Source of the DNA: Methanolinea sp. | Lineage (GTDB): Archaea > Halobacteriota > Methanomicrobia > Methanomicrobiales > Methanospirillaceae | DNA length: 64,000 nt | Reading direction: 5' to 3' | Assembly (NCBI GenBank): GCA_024518585.1 | Contig: JANIHI010000012.1 | Span: 1 to 64,000 of the forward strand | Shown here: in pieces, positions 61,623-62,999 of the stretch | Layout: each line of letters starts with the position of its first letter | How positions within the stretch are numbered: the first letter of the stretch is position 1 | The notes under the pieces: model-generated | Databases searched by the model: none | Told to the model about the DNA's origin: nothing | What the model saw: the letters and a program-made list of their open reading frames with translations, nothing else | Made by a program: the position numbers and the translations under genes

Positions 61623-62072
61623 CTACTCGTAGAGTGCGGATTCATCCGCACGCTTGTAGGTCACGATCTCTCCGGGATTAAAGTGGATGGCTATTTCCCG
61701 CTCCGCACTTGCGGGGGAATCGGAAGCATGGATGACGTTTCTCCCGGTGTCCATGGCAAGGTCGCCCCGGATGGTCCCGGGTTCAGCGTCGCCTGGGTTG
61801 GTCGCCCCTACCATGCGCCGCACGACCCGCACGGCGTCTCTGCCTTCCCACACCATCAGGAAACAGGGGCCACTCTCGATAAAGTGGCGCAGAGAGGGGA
61901 AGAACGGTTTTTCGATGTGCTCCCTGTACTGTTCAAGGACCTTCTTTTCCGTCAGTCGCTCGAACCGTGCAGCAACGAGCTTGAGCCCCTTGCCCTCAAG
62001 CCGGGAGATGACCTCGCCGATGAGCCCCCGTGCAACTCCATCCGGCTTGACCATCACGAAGGTGCGGTCCAT
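61623..62072 (-). CDS. ndk: Nucleoside diphosphate kinase (149 aa)
   Basis: Transfers the gamma phosphate between nucleoside triphosphates. The start [18 protein letters not shown] and the catalytic histidine in [17 protein letters not shown] are exact family marks. It is the last gene of a cluster rpl7ae-rps28e-rpl24e-ndk, a common archaeal order, with 6 bases to rpl24e. Confidence 0.97.
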
Positions 62073-62078
62073 CCGTGA

Positions 62079-62270
62079 TCACTCCTTGCCCGCTGCCTTC
62101 CGTCCCGCTTCTGTCCACGGTACGCGCCGGGGTGCTCTCCCGAGGCGGAAATTGTTCTGGCATTTTGTGCTGCAGAAGTAAAAGACAGAGCCGTCCCTGC
62201 GCACGAACATCTTCCCGGTGCCAGGTTCAATGTTATCCCCGCAAAAACTGCAGTTTCTCTGTTCGACCAT
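62079..62270 (-). CDS. rpl24e: Ribosomal protein eL24 (63 aa)
   Basis: Small zinc-binding protein of the large subunit. The four cysteines are in CSFCG and CSTKC. The ATG at 62270 is chosen because GGTGAG lies six bases upstream; an ATG at 62276 has no room for a ribosome binding site. It follows rps28e by 7 bases. Confidence 0.94.
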
Positions 62271-62277
62271 GTCCATC

Positions 62278-62487
62278 TCACCGCCGGGAGAGCTTCTTTG
62301 CCTCACGCTCTGTTTCAAGGAGCATCAGGATGTCCCCCTCGCGGATCGGGCCGACCGTGTTCCGGGTAATGATCCGGCCTTTGTTCGGTCCATCGAGGAT
62401 CCTGCACTTCACCTGCATGGCTTCTCCATGCATCCCGGTAGAGCCGATCACCTCAATCACCTCTGCGGGAGTCCCATCATCAGCCAT
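62278..62487 (-). CDS. rps28e: Ribosomal protein eS28 (69 aa)
   Basis: Small-subunit protein with the OB-fold signature [26 protein letters not shown] and the C-terminal [11 protein letters not shown]. Length and order (after rpl7ae, before rpl24e) are standard for archaea. Confidence 0.97.
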
Positions 62488-62494
62488 GGCCCTT

Positions 62495-62863
62495 TCACGC
62501 TCTCAGTTCGCTGACCTGCTTGATGATCTCATCGACCAGTTCCTTTGCCTTCCCCGGCTTGACGATGGCTGCGGCCGCTGACCCCACGTCAAGTCCGCTG
62601 GCCGTCCCGATATCGTTCTGCTTGTTGATGAAGAGGAACGGGATCTTCTTCTCCTCGCAAAGCGGGGGGAGGTGCATGACGATCTCTTCGGGTTCAACAT
62701 CGGCCCCGATGAGGACAAGTGCAGCAATGCTGCGTTCAATGGCCTTTGTTGCCTCGTTGGATCCCTTCTTGATCTTCCCCGTCTCCCTCGCTATCTCCAG
62801 GGCTTCGAGGGCCTTGTTCTGGATCTCTTCAGAAACCTGGAATTTGACATATGACTTTGCCAT
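62495..62863 (-). CDS. rpl7ae: Ribosomal protein eL8 / L7Ae, kink-turn binding (122 aa)
   Basis: Binds kink-turns in rRNA, box C/D and H/ACA guide RNAs and RNase P. The RNA-binding block is [26 protein letters not shown], followed by [12 protein letters not shown]. It is the first gene of the cluster. Its leader (62864 to about 62930) holds a kink-turn-like fold, described separately, which suggests autoregulation. Confidence 0.97.
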
Positions 62864-62873
62864 GACTCACCTC

Positions 62874-62905
62874 ATTCAGGAGTTGCAAAAGCTCCCTCAT
62901 CACTC
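62874..62905 (-). promoter_or_regulatory. Candidate kink-turn in the rpl7ae leader
   Basis: On the minus strand the leader has GATGAGGGAG (62892-62901) and, nine bases on, CTCCTGA (62876-62882). GGGAG pairs with CTCCT (one G-U), and each strand then carries GA, giving tandem sheared G-A pairs after a 3-base GAT bulge. This is the kink-turn consensus; exact box C (GTGATGA) and box D (CTGA) matches overlap it. The outer stem is weak by eye (two pairs). The ribosome binding site follows at once, so L7Ae binding could block translation. Pairing is seen; regulation is inference. Confidence 0.6.
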
Positions 62906-62951
62906 ATCAGTCAGTATCGACGATGCAGCCATATCATTTCGACAGGTGCAG

Positions 62952-62959
62952 GCATAAAG
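62952..62959 (-). promoter_or_regulatory. TATA-like element of the rpl7ae cluster
   Basis: CTTTATGC on the minus strand, about 90 bases before the rpl7ae start. It would place the transcription start near 62930, so the mRNA would contain the whole candidate kink-turn. The match to the TATA consensus is moderate. Confidence 0.45.
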
Positions 62960-62999
62960 GTTTGGAAGAACCCGGGTGCCCGCGGATTTTTCGCTGGAA

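Follow-up and report, generated by a model that had tools for sequence, protein, structure and literature searches.

The leader of the l7ae gene in the DNA analysed here, a window of 64,000 nt from Methanolinea sp. (contig JANIHI010000012.1, positions 1 to 64,000), most likely constitutes a protein-responsive OFF switch, made of two consecutive kink-turns (k-turns) of the same polarity that are joined by a linker of 2 bp; we put the probability of this reading at about 0.75. By analogy with published systems, the purpose of the fold would almost certainly be to let surplus L7Ae shut off its own production. The inner k-turn is strongly supported, whereas the support for the putative outer k-turn comes from sequence comparison and is moderate. 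The original prediction for this leader had described the inner k-turn correctly and had missed the outer half of the apparent tandem pair, and its interpretation is on the whole supported.

The regulated gene (l7ae, encoding eL8 of 122 aa) occupies 62495..62863 on the minus strand, with its ATG at 62863, and heads a cluster in which it is followed by the gene for S28e (62278-62487), with those for L24e (62079-62270) and nucleoside-diphosphate kinase (ndk, 61623-62072) in third and fourth place. That the gene behind the leader encodes L7Ae, as had been proposed, was borne out by a profile search (TIGR03677, 178 bits with a cut-off of 134.6) and by PDB L7Ae chains that match the product at E about 1e-43. 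A BRE/TATA-type promoter (AAACCTTTAT, 62954..62963, minus strand) is centred 93 nt upstream of the l7ae ATG and ~44 nt upstream of the leader element, and was matched at a minimum of 9 of 11 positions in 77/90 leaders. Transcription is predicted to start near 62931, ~19 nt 5′ of the element and not downstream of it, where a start would have spoken against the original prediction; given this predicted start and the distance to the TATA box, the element should lie within the transcript. A short open reading frame encoding MAASSILTDE (62932-62900, minus strand) begins at the predicted transcription start (ATATGG) and has its TGA stop within the second GAUGA. It could represent a leaderless upstream ORF; by eye, one family (f1) often has an ATG here, and the frame is not constant across all genera.

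The leader reads GACTGATGAGTGATGAGGGAGCTTTTGCAACTCCTGAATGAGGTGAGTC on the minus strand from 62912 to 62864, where it gives way to the l7ae ATG. Its element, on the same strand with all of its parts, spans 46 nt (62867..62912), corresponding to the 46 positions of the covariance model (R1), and is spelled ACU-GAU-GA-GU-GAU-GA-GGGAG...CUCCU-GA-AU-GA-GGU. In the inner k-turn, the bulge GAU (62899..62901) precedes a GA (62897..62898) that lies opposite the first GA of the 3′ strand (62876..62877) and is followed by an NC helix of GGGAG (62892..62896) and CUCCU (62878..62882), capped by the terminal loop CUUUUGCAA (62883..62891), which is variable. The two strands form two sheared-type G.A positions and then G.U, G-C, G-C, A-U, and G-C, which is exactly the GA-GGGAG / CUCCU-GA pairing behind a 3-base GAU bulge that had been claimed. 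The C helix of this k-turn consists of one strong pair (U-A / C-G) followed by the outer G.A pairs. The linker combines GU (62902..62903) with AU (62875-62874) as U-A and G.U pairs, and beyond it lie the outer GA (62904..62905), opposite the second 3′ GA (62872..62873), the outer bulge GAU (62906..62908), and an outer C helix whose 5′ side ACU (62909..62911) faces 62871-62869. Inner and outer k-turn both have the 3-nt bulge and the tandem G.A / A.G pairs of a standard k-turn. The outer 3′ GA also forms the first two bases of the Shine-Dalgarno (SD) sequence GAGGUGA (62867..62873), which ends three bases before the l7ae start codon; the GA and GGU of this sequence are paired in the outer k-turn, so that the element overlaps the ribosome binding site next to which it had been placed.

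For the comparative analysis, l7ae leaders were sampled from genomes of the order and then of the phylum. Within Methanomicrobiales, where conservation and covariation of the pairing had been suggested as a check, the whole element is kept in 87/90 leaders, with compensatory changes in the inner stem. In the comparison this stem occurs in variants that include GGAG/CTCC, GAAG/CTTC, GGGG/CCCC, AGAG/CTCT, AAAT/ATTT, GGAC/GTCC, and GGGC/GCCC, and four of its five pairs show compensatory changes. Over all named pairs in 71 distinct sequences, 82.3% of the cells were paired compared with 70.8% after shuffling, and covariation reached 0.424 compared with 0.250 (0/500 shuffles reach the observed value) and at most 0.160 with the 3′ strand slid. 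By far the strongest covariation comes from the inner stem, in which pairs 2-5 were paired in 94% of the cells, as is expected of an NC helix; the first stem position (3b:3n) pairs in 29/71 sequences, and k-turns are reported to tolerate an unpaired 3b:3n. The inner 5′ GA is invariant. The exact box C and box D words to which the original prediction had pointed (UGAUGA and CUGA) are present, whereas the C/D register that they imply is not the conserved one: CUGA is replaced in other families by UCGA, CCGA, AGA, or GGA, with GA alone constant, and it is the final GA of box C that takes part in the conserved register. The label "box C / box D" is therefore misleading. Just outside the inner pair, UGAUGA and the 3′ GA each occur once more and are equally conserved.

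On the 5′ strand, GAU-GA thus occurs twice at a distance of 7 nt, and on the 3′ strand GA occurs twice at a distance of 4 nt; the difference of 3 equals one bulge and is the signature of two consecutive k-turns. Among 140 leaders that represent 17 families of the phylum, 134 have this 7/4 spacing, while a further six families are without it; it is identical in all 71 distinct sequences. The constancy argues against a single inner k-turn, in which the outer GAUGA would merely belong to a loose C helix or be an unrelated conserved word, with the 3′ GAGG kept as SD only. Such an explanation agrees with the concentration of covariation in the inner stem, with the single k-turns described by Daume et al. 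2017 (PMC5539422) and Huang et al. 2019 (PMC6298567), and with one Archaeoglobaceae genus in which the 5′ word is doubled although the inner 3′ strand is degenerate. It does not account for the outer 5′ GA, which is invariant in the 71 distinct sequences over 15 families without any SD reason (the invariance of both 3′ GAs is partly by construction, as the strand finder demanded them), nor for the outer C helix, which is paired in 83% of the cells and changes between U.G, U-A, and C-G in different families. Taking both sides together, we regard a single inner k-turn as unlikely.

The tandem arrangement is further suggested by the linker, which was paired in 79% of the cells. Its pair adjoining the inner bulge was standard in 71/71 sequences; the y:z pair was formed in 71/71 (A1) and 98% (A2) and the x:w pair in only 41/71, which qualifies these pairs as an outer NC helix, and in one family (f6) the pair adjoining the inner bulge follows a compensatory path from U-A through U.G to C-G. 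The outer 3b:3n pair was standard in only 41/71 sequences, at a position where k-turns tolerate a mismatch. Taken alone, outer C helix and linker were paired in 76.7% of the cells compared with 70.7% in shuffles (0/500), and their covariation was 0.286 compared with 0.232 (7/500). The outer helix covaries only weakly, mostly through the exchange of U.G, C-G, and U-A at one pair, and its second pair is unpaired in 16/71 sequences. A modest signal is to be expected here, because GAGG doubles as the SD and the 3′ side can hardly vary.

Another explanation is that the 5′ GAUGA and 3′ GA words combine alternatively in a dynamic ensemble, with one k-turn formed at a time. One leader of the phylum sample, GCCGATGAATGATGATTTGATGAAGGAGGTG (L192, genome G237), which we take to be that of A. 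fulgidus DSM 4304, bears on this question. Its -1b = C and 3b = A occur in the outer 5′ word only, and its 3n = U and -1n = A at the inner 3′ GA only. PMC6298567 gives the A. fulgidus k-turn as having 3b:3n = A:U and -1b:-1n = C:A, so the published k-turn would join words that the comparison across the phylum places in two different k-turns; as deduced from the wording of the paper, its 5′ strand appears to come from the outer k-turn and its 3′ strand from the inner one. The probing mutant described there (1b and 2b changed) would disturb either model. These parameters, which fit only the outer 5′ word together with the inner 3′ GA, are what favors alternative registers. Across the phylum, however, the cross-registers pair much worse than the tandem register (58% and 36% in the first of them, 14% and 63% in the second), and we consider register switching improbable.

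Within its genome the element is unique. The tandem pattern ATGANNNATGAN{4,34}GANNGARG has a single occurrence in the 1.78-Mb genome, at the l7ae leader, and the reversed control pattern has none in the same 1.78 Mb. A covariance model, for which 41 sequences were used and the G.A positions were treated as paired, scored 58.1 bits on the leader studied here, with no other match in this genome at E ≤ 1, and found the l7ae leader in 30/31 related genomes at 37-58.6 bits, the sole genome without a match at l7ae being 67% complete. The next best match anywhere, at 25.5 bits, is located opposite a protein-coding gene and looks like chance. So, on inspection, do the remaining matches at 20-25 bits, which have an incomplete 3′ strand or fall in coding sequence, and a weak match at the start of the S28e gene (62485-62448) was above E 1 genome-wide. 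A search of Rfam over the leader (gathering score and E ≤ 1) gave no match, and no such element was seen in the nop5 leaders of 20 genomes, whose start codons were placed only roughly. The exact UGAUGA and CUGA words would be explained if the leader were overlapped by a small RNA, such as a box C/D guide RNA, that is served by the motif; this is highly improbable given the lack of conservation of CUGA, the absence of a D′/C′ pair and of an Rfam match, the short loop in most species, and the position of the element always directly at the l7ae start. A plain SD context combined with chance, with which only the overlap of the 3′ part and the SD agrees, is already refuted by an element that is unique in the genome, conserved, and covarying. 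The folding energy of the free leader is similar to that of shuffles (z of -0.17, -0.70, and +0.83) and is no evidence here, although a leader that is weakly stable without protein fits a switch with a protein-dependent fold.

From the published relatives, we infer that L7Ae would bind to this leader, that the leader would fold on binding, and that translation would thereby be repressed. Whenever rRNA, C/D and H/ACA guide RNAs, or RNase P RNA leave L7Ae unbound, the free protein would bind the leader and stabilize its weak stem-loop, upon which the SD GAGGUGA would become double-stranded and l7ae translation would stop; the downstream genes of the cluster might be affected through coupling. 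The inner k-turn would be capped by the hairpin, and the outer one would be formed by the first GAUGA with the SD's own GAGG. As 3n is U in both, neither k-turn should fold in metal ions alone, according to the folding rule in PMC6298567. That both are folded at once with two L7Ae bound is our conjecture. More tentatively still, and with somewhat less than an even chance of being right in full, the l7ae leader of most Halobacteriota may be a double k-turn to which two L7Ae molecules attach, with the outer k-turn clamping the SD and the feedback being cooperative, and the A. fulgidus model may mix two k-turns. The feedback would then be switch-like rather than proportional.

The basic switch is not new, because autoregulation through a leader k-turn, of which the original prediction was rightly aware, has been published for other archaea. 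Daume et al. 2017 (PMC5539422) describe L7Ae autoregulation in Sulfolobus and reporter repression through other archaeal leaders, including those of M. acetivorans and M. maripaludis, so that the presence of such an element in a methanogen cannot count as novel. For A. fulgidus, Huang et al. 2019 (PMC6298567) showed that the leader needs L7Ae in order to fold and to conceal its SD. The published L7Ae leaders share with the present one the gene, the site by the SD, the GAU bulge with tandem G.A pairs, and the expected occlusion of the SD; they differ in being modelled with one k-turn each, whereas a tandem of two is indicated here by the sequence and its comparison with relatives. In yeast, the L30e leader k-turn, as cited in PMC6298567, likewise lets a member of the L7Ae family regulate its own mRNA through a k-turn, although there splicing and translation are affected, the host is a eukaryote, and the k-turn is single.

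Two neighboring k-turns recognized by L7Ae also have a parallel outside mRNA leaders. Euryarchaeal RNase P RNA reportedly contains a double K-turn module. The module is attributed to Lai et al. 2017, as cited in PMC6565675. It belongs to a structural RNA, in contrast to the mRNA switch proposed here, and no GAUGA-NN-GAUGA / GA-NN-GA (7/4) spacing was seen on inspection of the RNase P RNAs of 12 genomes, including that of the organism itself; the geometry therefore does not look the same.

What we suggest to be new is the architecture of two k-turns, how widely it occurs in the phylum, the covariance model, and the possible mixing of registers in the published model; a literature search that covered few subscription journals found no report of tandem k-turns ahead of l7ae. 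Among archaeal mRNA switches that bind a protein, L7Ae leaders have been studied well, and synthetic biology makes use of them. If the tandem pair is real, published single-k-turn models would need revision, tests of the stoichiometry and cooperativity of the feedback would become possible, and many natural variants of a compact L7Ae switch with two sites would be available. The covariance model covers a family that Rfam lacks and makes an ancient feedback loop traceable from genomes.

The element varies across the phylum. Many members of one family (f2) have an enlarged terminal loop, with loop and stem together measuring 57-102 nt, while the promoter-to-element distance stays constant at 38-42 nt. 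The arms are therefore matched across the insert, as would be expected if they meet in space. The insert has an apparent hairpin of its own (L067, L070, L075, L079, L063), with both arms unchanged. In one probable Archaeoglobaceae genus (L300-L309), the inner k-turn decays: 8/10 genomes still have the doubled 5′ word but a degenerate inner 3′ GA, and the remaining 2/10 have lost the inner repeat and have a single GAUGA near the SD, a pattern that counts against strict coupling of the two strands there.

The element is absent from the haloarchaeal-type families f13, f17, f20, and f22, which have a different conserved leader, and from families f10 and f23, in which l7ae appears close behind an upstream gene. 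The haloarchaeal-type leaders (L212-L216, L227-L228, L233-L235, L242-L246) share the layout GATGATG ... TAGGGA ... GCGAGCCC ... SD, which is possibly another L7Ae-binding fold. In Methanoculleus-like leaders (f5g16), the inner 3b is mostly C; published rules allow ion-induced folding without L7Ae in this case, and the switch behavior may differ.
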